NCBI RefSeq assembly: GCF_015291665.1
Contig: NZ_CP030048.1
Span: 1,860,001 to 1,924,000, forward strand
DNA length: 64,000 bases
Origin: Bradyrhizobium sp. CCBAU 53338
GTDB taxonomy: Bacteria; Pseudomonadota; Alphaproteobacteria; Rhizobiales; Xanthobacteraceae
Direction of reading: 5' to 3'
Part shown: in pieces, positions 47,997-61,621 of the stretch
Layout: every line of letters starts with the position of its first letter
Numbering within the stretch: the first letter of the stretch is position 1
Position numbers and translations under genes: made by a program
Notes under the pieces: generated by a model
Seen by the model: the letters and a program-made list of their open reading frames with translations, nothing else
What the model was told of the DNA's origin: nothing
Database searches by the model: none

Positions 47997-49526
<1,530 letters not shown>

Positions 49527-49533
49527 GATAGCA

Positions 49534-51549
<2,016 letters not shown>

Positions 51550-56080: not shown

Positions 56081-57295
56081 TCAATTTGCTTGAATGGTGC
56101 TCGACATGGGGCGCGGGCCCGGAGCGATACTAAGCGGTGCCGCTTTCGGTCTCGGTTGACGGGGCCGAGCCGGAGATGCGCTCGGCGCCGGCGGAAGTAT
56201 CGAAGCGACCGCCTCGTGAGGCACCGATTTCCGCAATCTTATTTCTATCCTGCGCCGCTGCGCCACATCGCCGCCTGAAGTCGTGGAAAGAGCGAGCGTT
56301 TCGTCCGTGTTGATGAGCTGGGCACCAGAAAGCGGGATCATCTTGTAGTTGGCCAGCTTCGGCGACTGACGGAGCACACTGACAACCGACACCGCTCTGG
56401 CAAGCCCGAGCCCTGCGTTGTCGACGGGCGTCAGGCGCGCGATGTCCCCTCCGTTCCGTAAGATGGTCGCCAGGTCACGGTCGAGGTTGGATTGCCTGGA
56501 GGGAATAACAGGCGAGGGCGGCCTCGAAGGATCGGGTACCGCCGGAGCGAGCTGCCTGACCCCGAACGTCTGCTCGTCGGTGTGTCCGACCACCTCGATG
56601 ACGTCGACGTCGTACTTCTCTATGAAGCGCAGTATCTCGTCGGGCATCGTCGTCAGCAGAGCGTTGCGAAACGGCGCCGCGAGTTCGGCGCTTCCCGTCT
56701 TGAAGTAATAGCCGCCGGCTTCGCTCAACGTGATGATAGGAGGCCAATTGTGCCCGGAAGGGCCGGCACCCGGTGCGGACCCGCGGCCGATCAGATCTGC
56801 CAATTCCTGGGGCGATGGCACTCGACCGTCCGGCATCGCGCGCTTCATGGCTGCGACGATCTCAGCATCGCGAAGCGCCTTTTCCAGATCGATGCCGCTT
56901 GATTGGAGAGTCGTCATGGCGGCAGCCTTGTCCTTGATTTCCTTGAGCGAGGAGCCATCCTTCCGGAGTTCTGAAATTGCGGCCTTGCTGTCCACCAGAT
57001 CGCGCCAGAACTCGTCCATCGCGCCGGCGTCCGCGCCCGCGGCGTTGACGATCTTCTCGGAGAGCGCTGGATTTTGTCTCAATGCGTCCAGCACGGCTTG
57101 ATCGCGCTTGCTCTGGGCTTGATGCCGCTCGATCTCCTTCTTCGCCTCGTCCAATTTGCTCCGTTCGGACCTGAGATAGGTCGCCATGGCGATGAGAAGG
57201 CAGAACACCAGCAGCAGCATGATCTCGGCCATAGTCAGGCCGAGAACTAGTCCCTGCCTATACGAAGATCGTTGTTGGTTGATCTGACCGTCCAT
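56081..57295 (-). CDS. MotB/ZorB-like protein with OmpA peptidoglycan-binding domain
   Basis: A 404-residue envelope protein. One membrane helix (about 16-40) carries Glu24 at the place where MotB, ExbD and ZorB have the proton-binding Asp. A coiled coil follows (about 42-170), then an OmpA-like domain with Val-Val-Gly-His-Thr-Asp-Glu near 235-241 and Arg-Arg-Ile-Glu-Ile-Arg at its end, and a Pro-rich tail. By family it should be the peptidoglycan-anchored stator partner of the MotA/ExbB-like protein, 29 bases upstream on the same strand. Stator pairs use proton flow to move or signal. It is last in the five-gene leftward operon. Neither flagellar nor Tol genes are nearby. Confidence 0.87.
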   Translation of the reverse strand: MDGQINQQRSSYRQGLVLGLTMAEIMLLLVFCLLIAMATYLRSERSKLDEAKKEIERHQAQSKRDQAVLDALRQNPALSEKIVNAAGADAGAMDEFWRDLVDSKAAISELRKDGSSLKEIKDKAAAMTTLQSSGIDLEKALRDAEIVAAMKRAMPDGRVPSPQELADLIGRGSAPGAGPSGHNWPPIITLSEAGGYYFKTGSAELAAPFRNALLTTMPDEILRFIEKYDVDVIEVVGHTDEQTFGVRQLAPAVPDPSRPPSPVIPSRQSNLDRDLATILRNGGDIARLTPVDNAGLGLARAVSVVSVLRQSPKLANYKMIPLSGAQLINTDETLALSTTSGGDVAQRRRIEIRLRKSVPHEAVASILPPAPSASPARPRQPRPKAAPLSIAPGPRPMSSTIQAN

Positions 57296-57324
57296 CGTCG
57301 TCGATCCATTCGAATGCAGTATTG

Positions 57325-58362
57325 CTATTTCGCCGTGCCTCCGGGCGACCCGCCCCAGGGTCCGGATCTGAAGGCCTCCTGTTGACGAGCCGTTTCGGCC
57401 GATCGCAATTCCGCGATCAGACGTTCGGTTGCGGAAGCGATGTCCTGGGTCCGTTTCAGGTTTGTATCCACCATCTTCGCATGCGTCTCCGCCCCTTTGC
57501 TGAAAGCGTTGACGGCCCTAGACAGTCCCTGGATCATCGGAGAAAGCTTGATCTCGATGATCTGCTCTGGAGTCTGCATGGTTTCCAGCTTGGCGGCCAA
57601 CGCTTCGATGGCCTTGATCACCGAGCGGGTACTCTCCGCAAGCTGATTGGCATCGCTGGCAAGCTTTTTGGAAGCGACATCGAGCGACTGAGCTATCCGG
57701 TTGTTCAGGGATTCGATTGTGTCTCCGGATTTTTTGGAAGCCTCCTCGAGCGGCTTGACCGAGTGGTCGGCGAACTGCTTGAGCTCGCCTGCGACGTTCT
57801 GTCGAGCCTCCCCCAAAATGCCCTTCATCTCCTCCATCGCATCGGTGATGGACTGCTGGGCTGCTCTTCGGAAATATGCGAATTCGAGGACGGTGCTGTC
57901 GAGTTCACGTCTCACCTTGCGCGACGCATCCGCCAGTTCCATGCGTGCCGCCGCTTCCACCTCGATCGGATCACGCCTCATCTGATTGAAGAAGATGCGC
58001 AACGCGATGCCCGCGATGGTCGAAGCGATCGCGATGCCGAAGTTCTGGACGATCTGCTCCGCGGACCCGTTGGCCGAGAACTGATAGAGGGATACCGCCA
58101 GGCTGGTCAGCGTGAAGAGGAAGCCCATGTAGTACAGATTGTCGCCCGACTGGTCGTCACGGAGCCGCATCAAACGGGCGATCCCCAGCACTAGGGCGTA
58201 GGCTATCATGACGAGCACCGGCACGGACGTGACCAGCAACGCGCTGAGACCCACCAGCTTCGAAAACACGATGTAGCCGCAACCGGCGAGCACGACGGCG
58301 AAGAAGAAAAGTCCGCCCGCAAGACCATGTGGGATGCGCGACTTCGTATCTGAGGGTGCCAC
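57325..58362 (-). CDS. MotA/ExbB/ZorA-like proton-channel protein
   Basis: A 345-residue protein with four predicted membrane helices (about 15-35, 40-62, 76-96 and 106-127). Helix 3-4 and the loop (Gly-Ile-Ala-Ile-Ala-Ser-Thr-Ile-Ala-Gly-Ile-Ala) follow the conserved MotA/TolQ/ExbB channel pattern. Residues 130-335 form a long coiled coil that should reach into the cytoplasm. A long tail after the channel is the feature that sets ZorA apart from MotA. The start is GTG. It lies four bases after the vWA-like gene and 29 before the MotB-like gene. With the latter it should form a proton-driven complex. Confidence 0.83.
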   Translation of the reverse strand: MAPSDTKSRIPHGLAGGLFFFAVVLAGCGYIVFSKLVGLSALLVTSVPVLVMIAYALVLGIARLMRLRDDQSGDNLYYMGFLFTLTSLAVSLYQFSANGSAEQIVQNFGIAIASTIAGIALRIFFNQMRRDPIEVEAAARMELADASRKVRRELDSTVLEFAYFRRAAQQSITDAMEEMKGILGEARQNVAGELKQFADHSVKPLEEASKKSGDTIESLNNRIAQSLDVASKKLASDANQLAESTRSVIKAIEALAAKLETMQTPEQIIEIKLSPMIQGLSRAVNAFSKGAETHAKMVDTNLKRTQDIASATERLIAELRSAETARQQEAFRSGPWGGSPGGTAK

Positions 58363-58366
58363 TGAG

Positions 58367-59194
58367 CTATGTTCCCTGAAGGCGGTGGATGGCGACCAGA
58401 ACGCCCGCGTTATCTTTCACCCAGGCATCCCAGAAGGAGACGTGACGGGCGGTTTCCGGCATGACGTTTGGCCTGCTCACGTAGTCGATTGTCACGAGCG
58501 CCTGATGAAGGTCGGTCCTGTACTTGAGATATGCCGGCGACTGCTTGAAGCGTGGATAGGTGAGATCGGCGTTCCGATACTGACTGTACTCGCGAGTGTG
58601 CTCGATCATATCCGAAATGACGACCAGGCTTTTCTTGGCCGAGCGGCTTTGCGAGGTCGAGAACTGGTCGATGGCGATGTCCTGGATCGCGGCCATGATC
58701 GGCGAGCTGTTTGCCTTCGCGGACGATAGGCTGTTCCGGATTGCCTCGGCTGCGGGTTTTCGAAAGCTTTCTATCCATCGCATGCGGGCGATCCGGGGAT
58801 TGTCGGTCCATTCGCTGAGGCCTACTCCATCGCCCGGATTGCATTTGGAGAAGAGCGATCGGCTGCGGTTGCCTTGGATATCGAGAACCCGGATGTCCAG
58901 ACGATAGTACGGCGGCAAGCCGGTGACGAGATCATTCAGGATGCCCATCACTTCGCGTGTGGTAGTCGGAGAGAGATCGTCGGAAGTGTCGACCAGCACT
59001 ACTGTGATGCCTTCCGGACCGGCGATCGGGCACAGCGTGTTTCGGTCCAGGGCGGGCCTGGAAGGCATGGAGTAATAGAGGGCACCGAGAGCGATTACGG
59101 CTACCACCGCCACGAACAGCAGCAAGACGCCTCCGATGACGGAGGCATCCACACTCATGCCTTTCTTCCTACTTCGACGTTTTGCCATTCCCAT
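58367..59194 (-). CDS. Membrane-anchored vWA-like protein
   Basis: A 275-residue protein with a basic N-terminus (Lys/Arg-rich, 5-12), one membrane helix (about 18-42) and a periplasmic domain. That domain begins Val-Val-Leu-Val-Asp69-Thr-Ser71-Asp-Asp, the start of a von Willebrand A-type metal site in which the second Ser is replaced by Asp, and has a later strand Ser-Leu-Val-Val-Ile-Ser-Asp-Met. I read it as a degenerate vWA domain. It overlaps the end of the gene before it by 26 bases. Its role could be to regulate or assemble the channel complex. Not a family I can name. Confidence 0.7.
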   Translation of the reverse strand: MGMAKRRSRKKGMSVDASVIGGVLLLFVAVVAVIALGALYYSMPSRPALDRNTLCPIAGPEGITVVLVDTSDDLSPTTTREVMGILNDLVTGLPPYYRLDIRVLDIQGNRSRSLFSKCNPGDGVGLSEWTDNPRIARMRWIESFRKPAAEAIRNSLSSAKANSSPIMAAIQDIAIDQFSTSQSRSAKKSLVVISDMIEHTREYSQYRNADLTYPRFKQSPAYLKYRTDLHQALVTIDYVSRPNVMPETARHVSFWDAWVKDNAGVLVAIHRLQGT

Positions 59195-60638
59195 TCCCTG
59201 CCTCTGGGAAGAAGTCGTCGATTTCTCTGTACGATTGGACAGCCTTGTCGAACGCGTCGTTGATCGCCCGAATTTGTCCTTTCAGGAGTTCCTGCGTCTG
59301 AACGATCGTACGGTGGAGTTCGTCGCCGGCGGCGGGCTCCGGTCCCGAAGTCGCCGGCACGATGCGCTCCATCGCGTAAGGGCGGTCGAAGTGCGATGGC
59401 GCGGGCGTGGAGCGAGCTTTTCGGTTCGCTTCGCGGTAGGTCTGAAGCAAAGCGTTGCAGGCGCGCTCGATGTGGGACTGATGTTCGGAGAAGCGTTGGG
59501 CGAGGCGGCTCCTGTCACGCAGCATCGCGTCGAATTCCGATCGACGGACCGTCAGGTCGTGAACAGCGTCGTTCATCGCTTCCGACGCCCTGTCCCGGAT
59601 ATCTCGCAGGCTATCGATCAGATCCGACTTCGCATCGGTGAACTTGGTGCTCGCATCGCTCCACCGCCGCTCCAGACCGGCATAGCCGATGTACGGATCG
59701 AAGTACGTCAGGCCATCGACCATGGCGATAAGCGAAAATACGAATCCCACGCCGAAAAGAAGCCACGACATGACGTCCGTCAATCCCAACGGAGCAGCTC
59801 GGATGTGCTTGAGCACTTCCTGGCCCACGTCGATGGCTATGTCGGGCGGAATCTCCCGAAGGTGGGCGAGAGTGAGATTGAGTGTGACGGCGAAGACCAA
59901 ATACCCGATCAACCCGACGACGCCCACCAGCTTCAGGAACGGATTGCGCTGATTGATCAGTCGAACCGGGAGCAGCCCCCACAGGAAGCTGACCAAAATG
60001 TTGAATGCAGCGAACACGGTGGCTTGGACGGCACCGCCGACGTAGCCGAGCTCGTTGGCCTTGGCGAGAAATGTTCCATTGATCACGATCTCGACCACGA
60101 ACAGGACCGCGAGCACGCCGACCTTGAGATAGATCTTGCCCCAGCTCGCAAGACGGGCCGGACGTGTAATGCCGTGCTTCTTGCGGAAACCATCCCTTTC
60201 CAGTTCGGATTCGTTCAGCCGTCGGCGCAAGGCGAAGAGTTCGTCTCTGCCTAGAGTCGCTTCCGCTGCGAAGTCACCGACGGCCTCCGGAGCCGCCTGC
60301 TGGATCACCGCGAAGCGTTCCTCGAAGTTGAGCGCGGCGAGGCGCTGGTCGTACGTATGAAGATGCTCAAGGTAGATTGAATGGGCATCCTGTTTGTGCG
60401 CTTCGATACGCTCGACGATCTGGTGTTCGACATCGTCCATCGTGCCGGCGCTTTGTTGCGGCCGGCCGTCCGCTCCGCGTTCGGATCCCCGCTGCGCCAG
60501 GTTCATCTCGCGGGCGACGGTCTCGACGTTCAGGTCGAGAAAGACCTGGGTTGAGGGGCGATACGGATGCTGAGCTTGACCGAAGAGCTCGCGAAGGCGG
60601 GCTATGGGTGACGGGCGATTTGCGGGTTTCGAAATCAT
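59169..60638 (-). CDS. Four-TM coiled-coil membrane protein
   Basis: A 489-residue protein: an N-terminal soluble region of about 165 residues with helical character, four membrane helices (about 170-192, 203-223, 237-258 and 286-308), then a long coiled coil (about 320-420) and a Pro/Gly-containing tail. It matches no family I recognise. The coiled coils in it and in the MotA-like protein suggest they contact each other. It begins nine bases after the nuclease gene and overlaps the vWA-like gene. Confidence 0.72.
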   Translation of the reverse strand: MISKPANRPSPIARLRELFGQAQHPYRPSTQVFLDLNVETVAREMNLAQRGSERGADGRPQQSAGTMDDVEHQIVERIEAHKQDAHSIYLEHLHTYDQRLAALNFEERFAVIQQAAPEAVGDFAAEATLGRDELFALRRRLNESELERDGFRKKHGITRPARLASWGKIYLKVGVLAVLFVVEIVINGTFLAKANELGYVGGAVQATVFAAFNILVSFLWGLLPVRLINQRNPFLKLVGVVGLIGYLVFAVTLNLTLAHLREIPPDIAIDVGQEVLKHIRAAPLGLTDVMSWLLFGVGFVFSLIAMVDGLTYFDPYIGYAGLERRWSDASTKFTDAKSDLIDSLRDIRDRASEAMNDAVHDLTVRRSEFDAMLRDRSRLAQRFSEHQSHIERACNALLQTYREANRKARSTPAPSHFDRPYAMERIVPATSGPEPAAGDELHRTIVQTQELLKGQIRAINDAFDKAVQSYREIDDFFPEAGNGNGKTSK

Positions 60639-60647
60639 CTTATCGCA

Positions 60648-61364
60648 TCAGAGTTTCGAACGCCGGCAGCCGGCCGCCACGGCTTCCGCTTCTGAGCAGA
60701 ACCAGCGCCTCGTCTTGGTGTCCGTCATGACCAGCCGATCGTAAAACTGCCCGCCAGGCAAATGGTAGATGCATGCAGGCGTCGCCCGCAGATTGCCTTT
60801 GATCGTGCAATTGGGGGCAGGGGGCTTCTCCGTCAGAGATCTGGCGATCATGGTTTTTTGCGCGTCGGTGGGCACTGAATTGGCGCCGAGCACGAGCGTG
60901 GCGGAGCCGCGTCTCCTCCAGTCCCATGGTGCGACGAAGGACCCCTTCCACAGCCCGCGCTGGGCGGCGCGCGCCACGTCCTCGTCGGTCACGTAGTTCA
61001 GGGAATATCGCCGAAACGCCAATGCCCAGCCTTCACTCACGAGCCAACCGTTCAGGTCCCGGCCCTCGACGAAGCAGGTCCCCAGCGCTCGTCCATACCG
61101 ATCGGCGCCGGATGTTCGGCACAGCCAGGAGCGACCGGCGGAATGGTGTTCCAATGCCGAGCGAGCTTCGATACCGCATTGCCAAGTTTTGCCTGCTTGA
61201 TCCAAGCAGACCTGATCCATTTCGGGTGCGTCAATGCCCTGCAGACGGATTTTGAGGGCGCCCACGTAGACGGTGTCAGCATCGACGATTTGGGGAACCC
61301 CGTTCACCTCGGCCGCGCACGTGGGCAGGATCAAGGCGAGCCAAAAAAAGGCGATCAACCGCAT
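60648..61364 (-). CDS. Secreted SNase-type nuclease
   Basis: A 238-residue protein with a Sec signal (about 1-18) and a staphylococcal-nuclease (TNase) domain over about 22-150. Catalytic positions are visible: Asp28 and Asp30 in Val-Asp-Ala-Asp-Thr, Arg40, Asp45 and Glu48 in Gly-Ile-Asp-Ala-Pro-Glu, and Arg92 in Asp-Arg-Tyr-Gly-Arg. A second C-terminal region (about 160-238) contains four Cys and may be an added binding domain. ATG 61364 with GGGGAAC upstream is chosen over a start 42 bases earlier. It heads the five-gene operon, and export puts the nuclease on the same side as the OmpA-like domain. Confidence 0.87.
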   Translation of the reverse strand: MRLIAFFWLALILPTCAAEVNGVPQIVDADTVYVGALKIRLQGIDAPEMDQVCLDQAGKTWQCGIEARSALEHHSAGRSWLCRTSGADRYGRALGTCFVEGRDLNGWLVSEGWALAFRRYSLNYVTDEDVARAAQRGLWKGSFVAPWDWRRRGSATLVLGANSVPTDAQKTMIARSLTEKPPAPNCTIKGNLRATPACIYHLPGGQFYDRLVMTDTKTRRWFCSEAEAVAAGCRRSKL

Positions 61365-61621
61365 CTTACTGTTCCCCCAACAACCCCAAACCACGGTATA
61401 CTGCAATCTTTATTGAAAACCACGGCGCGAAGCAGCTATGCGACCAAAGTCCACGGTATGTCGAGGTCTGCCGACGAGGCCGAGCGACGCAGACCAAGGG
61501 TTTTCCCTAGGAACGGTGTGTAGCAGAGCACGCGAAGGGGGGGCAGAAGATTGATTCCGGTCGGACCGAAGAGCGACAATGGCGGCTCTCTTCGAATCGA
61601 TGGACCTGGAGGCCTCGCATC
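61365..61621. other. Promoter region of the envelope operon
   Basis: No gene. A leftward promoter for the nuclease operon must lie here; a TATACC-like -10 (minus strand near 61397) is present but its -35 is unclear. Confidence 0.3.

Follow-up and report, generated by a model that had tools for sequence, protein, structure and literature searches.

A fixed set of four genes, encoding the two subunits of a motor-like complex, a four-transmembrane (4TM) protein and a vWA-like protein, is linked to a nuclease in Bradyrhizobium sp. CCBAU 53338 and in relatives. The genes lie in the window analysed here, a stretch of 64,000 nucleotides corresponding to C1:1860001-1924000 of the 8.28-Mb genome, and this copy is chromosomal; a check of open reading frames (ORFs) places five co-directional genes on the minus strand between positions 61364 and 56081 (Table 1). 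They are transcribed in the order SNase, 4TM, vWA-like, MotA-like, MotB-like; the 4TM and vWA-like genes overlap by 26 bp, and the gaps are 9 bp after SNase, 4 bp after vWA-like and 29 bp after MotA-like, so that the proposal of an earlier sequence-only reading, a motor/vWA/nuclease operon of five genes on one strand within about 5.3 kb, is confirmed by ORFs, spacings and domains. We tentatively propose that they specify an undescribed envelope immune machine, in which a glutamate-type motor with 4TM and vWA partners would carry a swappable periplasmic nuclease head; it would be the equivalent of Zorya in the periplasm, destroying DNA before this reaches the cytoplasm. No published description of the operon was found in the literature searched, preprints and most subscription papers lying outside that search.

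Table 1. Genes of the operon, with positions in the window and the basis of each assignment.
Feature	Position	Strand	Basis
SNase, exported (thermonuclease), 238 aa	60648..61364	-	PF00565, NF051437
4-TM coiled-coil protein, 489 aa	59169..60638	-	structure model; TM helices assigned by eye
vWA-like protein, 275 aa	58367..59194	-	structure model, Foldseek, VIA-align
ZorA/MotA-like channel subunit, 345 aa	57325..58362	-	alignments, sub-threshold profile matches
MotB-like subunit, 404 aa	56081..57295	-	profile match to PomB/MotB

The conserved core and its nucleases

Scanning genome contigs with a profile gave 203 confirmed relatives, and gene order was analysed in the best 80. The genes for 4TM, vWA, MotA and MotB follow one another on one strand and in fixed order in 79 of these 80 loci, all from other genomes; in the remaining locus (L031) the contig end falls inside MotA, and one member of the 79 (L073:9178-10001) has its vWA gene broken into two ORFs. 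The same four genes occur in the same order in ten plasmid regions examined. Searches with the channel subunit (tblastn) matched 24 plasmid records (Rhizobium 12, Paracoccus 6, Sinorhizobium 3, Microvirga 2, Tistrella 1), of which 15 match at a coverage of at least 80% in one place and 11 are typed conjugative; chromosomal copies are found too, in the window genome and in genome G005. Of 60 relatives, 4 carry the 4TM gene, as do 12 of 385 genomes from the class and 10 of 398 from the phylum, the window's own genome being counted each time; all ten in the phylum set are from the window's class, though how far that set extends beyond the class is not stated, and the class and phylum sets share two further genomes. 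Among named organisms, the nearest relatives of the 4TM and channel proteins come from Bradyrhizobium. The four-gene core is a real but patchy unit.

The MotB-like subunit consists of a transmembrane (TM) helix with the motif GLTxAE, a linker and an OmpA-like peptidoglycan-binding domain, the combination of N-terminal acidic TM helix and OmpA-like domain that marks a B subunit of MotB type, and its family profile matches the structures of PomB and MotB (best E 4.6e-6). The glutamate of the motif, E24, is present in 49/49 aligned sequences; of the 102 MotB ORFs, duplicates counted, 101 fit a pattern, all with glutamate, and the single misfit also reads AE. The Pfam OmpA model scores over its cut-off in two distant loci (L127 and L128), just under it in a third (L122) and under it in the window protein.

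It is in these distant loci that the nuclease is found on the MotB-like protein itself. In L128 and L122 an SNase domain follows the OmpA domain (51.0 and 24.7 bits, cut-off 21), L115 holds a third MotB-SNase fusion, and in L127 the same position is taken by GmrSD_C, an HNH-type nuclease domain (44.2 bits, cut-off 23); the 4TM, vWA and MotA genes lie upstream in all four. Two database searches (49 matches, and the best 120 of 131) yielded 159 clusters of MotB-like proteins, 137 with the GLTxAE helix inside their first 70 residues: SNase was found in 36 and HNH in 50, with both in none, counts that are not population frequencies because the queries were the fused proteins themselves. An HNH count made with a model of 190 C-terminal residues was set aside, being inflated by OmpA sequence in the model. 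Since the C terminus of the B subunit should be periplasmic by topology, the fused nuclease is predicted to lie in the periplasm, which agrees with export of the stand-alone SNase; of the evidence for an envelope-acting nuclease, as had been suggested from the window alone, these relatives provide the strongest. Among other forms of the protein, one MotB-SNase fusion (P0168, 777 aa) contains roughly three copies of a long linker segment, and three distant MotB-like proteins (L118:12563-13573, L119:12507-13400 and L121:12458-13615) have the GLTxAE helix, no OmpA match and another C-terminal domain starting PSCW/SCW.

The window SNase, alone among the five operon proteins in passing a Pfam cut-off (PF00565, 5.9e-12, 46.4 bits; NF051437, 2.3e-9), ends in a C-terminal "sunset" domain. 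Residues R40, D45, E48 and R92, to which we assign catalytic roles on the presumed model of staphylococcal nuclease, are present and invariant across five aligned sequences, and we regard the protein as a putative DNA-cutting effector. By eye its N terminus is hydrophobic, and an upstream TTG at 61406 is a possible alternative start. A hydrophobic segment precedes the SNase domain in 39/41 stand-alone SNases when full ORFs with predicted starts are used, and in 24/41 when starts are trimmed to that of the window protein.

SNase positions were tallied in a set of 105 loci from which three repeat records (L015, L030, L035) and SNase matches weaker than 1e-5 had been removed, and which still includes one repeat record and some near-identical loci. 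In 41 of these loci an SNase domain lies at most 1 kb from the core, in four arrangements: upstream on the same strand (23), downstream on the opposite strand (8), downstream on the same strand (6) and upstream on the opposite strand (4). Among the other 64, SNase lies further off in eight, is fused in three and is replaced by the fused HNH domain in one. With one vote for each of 58 groups, formed by joining loci at a vWA identity above 85%, the tally is 29 adjacent, 3 fused SNase, 1 fused HNH and 1 near. Control regions totalling 380,020 bp yielded no SNase, and the window's whole genome has four SNase matches. The link between SNase and core is real; the expectation that all five genes would co-occur stands for the four core genes, while the SNase is variable. 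An apparent SNase in most of the SNase-less loci (tblastn) proved an artefact of one query, an ORF from L059 that extended into the 4TM gene on the antisense strand; best matches from other queries were confined to L115, L127 and L013, that of L115 being its fused SNase. Just before the 4TM gene of L118 (8684-8920), a 78-aa ORF matches the C-terminal end of SNase only and is possibly a remnant.

The MotA-like channel subunit has a very short TM2-TM3 loop, followed by TM3-TM4 and a long cytoplasmic coiled coil; G80, T84, T115 and G118 of TM3-TM4 are present in 42/42 sequences. Four of six distant A subunits match PF01618 below threshold over TM3-TM4 (L127 0.0071, L119 0.011, L128 0.031, L122 0.095), and those of L118 and L121 give no match. 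Compared with a profile of four ZorA-like sequences, the family scores 21.4, against a maximum of 18.9 and a mean of 14.4 for 40 block shuffles, and T84 aligns with the TM3 threonine of ZorA; the four single ZorA-like sequences each reach probabilities of 2.6-5.0%, against 1.6% for the best of 37 unrelated membrane proteins. A positive control, ZorA against TolQ, gave 47%. Homology of this subunit to MotA/ZorA is suggested indirectly.

The two other core proteins are known from structure models. That of the 4TM protein (predicted local distance difference test, pLDDT, 89) shows N-terminal helices, four TM helices (by eye) and a long C-terminal helix, with helices at 166-194, 199-222, 233-262, 289-312 and 319-408; both termini are probably cytoplasmic. 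Neither Pfam nor NCBIfam gives a match to it over cut-off, PADLOC gives none, and its model has no match in the PDB at E ≤ 0.001, which does not show a new fold. Profile searches of solved structures gave no match for the vWA-like protein and one insignificant match for 4TM. The model of the vWA-like protein (pLDDT 92) has a basic N terminus and one TM helix (16-42), and its vWA fold is supported by Foldseek and VIA-align; the domain is probably periplasmic. Its metal ion-dependent adhesion site is altered relative to the DxSxS...T...D pattern: D69-x-S/T71-D72, S164 and D195 are kept and the fifth position is not conserved. D69, D72, S164 and D195 are present in 42/42 sequences, as are two invariant cysteines, C55 and C118.

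Relation to Zorya and other envelope motors

Zorya has a ZorA/ZorB motor, with the TM aspartate D24 in ZorB, accompanied by ZorCD, ZorE or ZorFG, and nuclease-type effectors (PMC11890865). The operon shares with it paired motor genes, an A subunit with a long cytoplasmic tail, to which ZorA tails matched weakly, and a B subunit combining a TM acidic residue with a peptidoglycan-binding domain (PMC11890865). However, the ZorA model NF033914 gives 18.1 bits against a cut-off of 190; the best PADLOC ZorA match (E 1.2e-4) lies over the coiled coil, where unrelated proteins match too, and the PADLOC ZorB match of the window MotB-like protein has an E of 0.044. The TM acid is invariably glutamate rather than the aspartate of ZorB, 4TM and vWA genes are added, and the nuclease would be periplasmic, whereas Zorya effectors are cytoplasmic. 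PADLOC found no ZorC-G among the five operon proteins and three downstream ones, upstream proteins being outside that scan. Judged by these comparisons, the operon resembles Zorya in its proposed working and falls outside it, as the sequence-only reading had held.

The pairing of a membrane-anchored, probably periplasmic vWA protein with neighbouring genes for a motor of presumed 5:2 type recalls the vWA proteins coupled to TolQ-like motors that have been proposed as force transducers (PMC12204202). Unlike these, the operon has an OmpA-bearing B subunit, a 4TM gene and an attached nuclease; the TM helix of the window vWA protein, read from sequence, has no SHLS motif and no histidine, and the alternative form, TPH-vWA without a B subunit, differs in that a B subunit is present here. 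Like MotAB/PomAB stators, the operon has a B subunit whose OmpA domain matches PomB, but its A subunit is without the large cytoplasmic TM2-TM3 loop. The generic (GIT) stator B subunits have, according to PMC12505986, no OmpA-homologous domain, in contrast to the MotB-like family. SNIPE (DUF4041 + GIY-YIG) is an inner-membrane nuclease that cuts phage DNA during injection; it differs from the operon in being a single protein with no motor and with its nuclease on the cytoplasmic face (PMC13190303). Membership of a flagellar or Tol system, which the sequence-only reading had named as a finding that would overturn it, was not found: flagellar, Tol or Exb identity was rejected, PF01618 matches of the same genome lie elsewhere, and no flagellar gene scored over cut-off among the scanned neighbours.

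A proposed role against incoming DNA and its rivals

Flanking genes (at most 8 kb each side, one locus for each of the 58 groups) were scanned with PADLOC, covering 507 of 509 selected proteins, two very long ORFs being excluded. At E ≤ 1e-40 the matches listed include GajA, GajB, AriA, type II and IIG restriction-modification, Cyclase, E1-E2, BrxHI, HerA, STK_OB, SngA/SngC, RmrA/RmrT, PD-Lambda-1, Cas10/Csm3 and PDC candidates, labels whose defence systems we name presumptively; in a control of 251 of 297 proteins encoded elsewhere in some of these genomes, AbiEi/AbiEii alone appear among the matches listed at that threshold. The mad3/mad8 families, present in both sets (mad3 2.8e-50 in the test, 4.3e-36 in the control), were ignored, and no rate was derived, as one protein can match several families and each scan lists its first 25. 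The excess is a trend, since a small, largely chromosomal control stands against flanks that are partly plasmid-borne. In L135 (Sinorhizobium fredii) the SNase has a SNIPE-like DUF4041+T5orf172 gene at a distance of about 100 bp. The supposed location in a defence island fits this trend in the flanks of relatives and not the neighbours of the window's own copy.

Given these observations, a role against incoming DNA fits best, on the strength of the effector swap, the patchy and partly plasmid-borne distribution and the defence-gene matches in the flanks; effector swap is typical of conflict systems. Defence, the guarding function first suggested for the operon, is what we infer as most likely, with our confidence in it about evenly poised: a wall-anchored motor driven by the proton-motive force would position or trigger a swappable periplasmic nuclease against entering DNA. 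The ZorA/MotA-like and OmpA-bearing MotB-like subunits would form a peptidoglycan-anchored motor, 5:2 by analogy, powered through the glutamate helix inside the A ring and held to the wall through OmpA, with the 4TM and periplasmic vWA proteins as constant partners probably serving in sensing or coupling. The nuclease, SNase here and HNH elsewhere, would be placed in the periplasm either by export or on the MotB-like subunit; when the wall is disturbed or an invader makes contact, the motor might open or turn, and the periplasmic assembly would shift state, so that the nuclease cuts DNA crossing the envelope. The 5:2 assembly, proton flow, triggering and choice of target are likewise what we infer.

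Several observations weigh against this proposal. SNase was not found in 52 of the 105 loci (10 of the 52 have less than 1 kb of flank on one side) nor in 24 of the 58 groups, and 73 of the 159 MotB clusters have neither nuclease. Of 72,556 plasmid records, 326 match the fused protein, and among 20 listed, many of them rhizobial, 14 match in the nuclease part; SNase-type genes are thus not rare on rhizobial plasmids, their frequency there exceeds that in the control regions, and the co-location could in part reflect this background. No curated model recognises the window MotA-like subunit, PF01618 included; the probability in the comparison with the ZorA set is just 5.4%, with one of the 37 unrelated membrane proteins outscoring that set in raw terms (21.75 against 21.39), and comparison with TolQ/ExbB gave a probability below 1%, not above those 37 proteins. 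No record in the phage collection matched the channel subunit, the window's own neighbours match no known defence genes, and the defence control, besides its size and chromosomal bias, is unmatched for species.

The loci without a nuclease are what would be expected if the motor were itself the actor, with wall damage leading it, much as in Zorya, to depolarise the cell or to signal through coiled coils, and the nuclease an optional accessory. The long cytoplasmic coiled coils of the MotA-like and 4TM proteins agree with such a role, which we nevertheless consider unlikely given the repeated linkage of the nuclease in different arrangements, its fusion and its swap. The plasmid records, and in particular those typed conjugative, could instead point to a plasmid or island device for entry exclusion or competition that cuts the conjugating DNA of rival plasmids rather than phage DNA; genes annotated as HipA, a zincin-like metallopeptidase (which we take to be ardC-like) and transfer genes lie nearby, but with chromosomal copies at hand and flanks matching known anti-phage genes this seems to us distinctly unlikely.

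DNA uptake or envelope repair, the other functions suggested at the outset, received no specific support here. Exported nucleases act in DNA uptake elsewhere, and a ComEC-labelled gene lies 5.4 kb after the SNase in L010, so that the nuclease might trim external DNA in the periplasm while the motor drives import; eight annotated plasmid regions, however, have no pilus or ComEA label and a ComEC label in one, and with a patchy distribution and a swap to HNH the idea is improbable. Equally improbable is envelope maintenance by a Tol-like force transducer of the kind proposed in PMC12204202, with a housekeeping nuclease: the distribution is accessory, as the class counts above illustrate, and the fusion of the nuclease would be left without explanation. 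Moreover, in ten regions downstream of pccA homologues of nine relatives (identity 93.6-95.6% to window 49507-51549) neither the operon nor eight tested ORFs (52.1-63.9 kb) were found at E ≤ 1e-6, although some genomes have two pccA copies and the orthology of each region is not proved.

Should the nuclease indeed cut incoming DNA in the periplasm, immunity would move one compartment outward, as both Zorya effectors and SNIPE, the anti-phage nucleases taken for comparison, work on the cytoplasmic side, and self would be told from non-self by place, the chromosome not being in the periplasm. How the ZorAB motor affects its effectors is unsettled, a model being offered in PMC11890865; the nuclease fusions offer a clean route to what motor movement does to an effector.

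Some further features of the surroundings were recorded. A search of the window for tRNA genes found none, and a search for island-marking repeats found none that was convincing; the pccA-like gene of the window has a second copy in the same genome (C1:3447147-3449162, 93% identity). On pSfreNXT3b, the plasmid of L135, a hypothetical gene is directly followed by a second OmpA-family gene (L135:89-1000), some 8.7 kb ahead of the core; the two may form a further motor pair. In L124:8209-10598 and L129:8731-11120 distant homologues of 4TM and vWA lie side by side, with no MotA/MotB detected, and in L124 the pair is followed by TatA/TatB-like and TatC genes.

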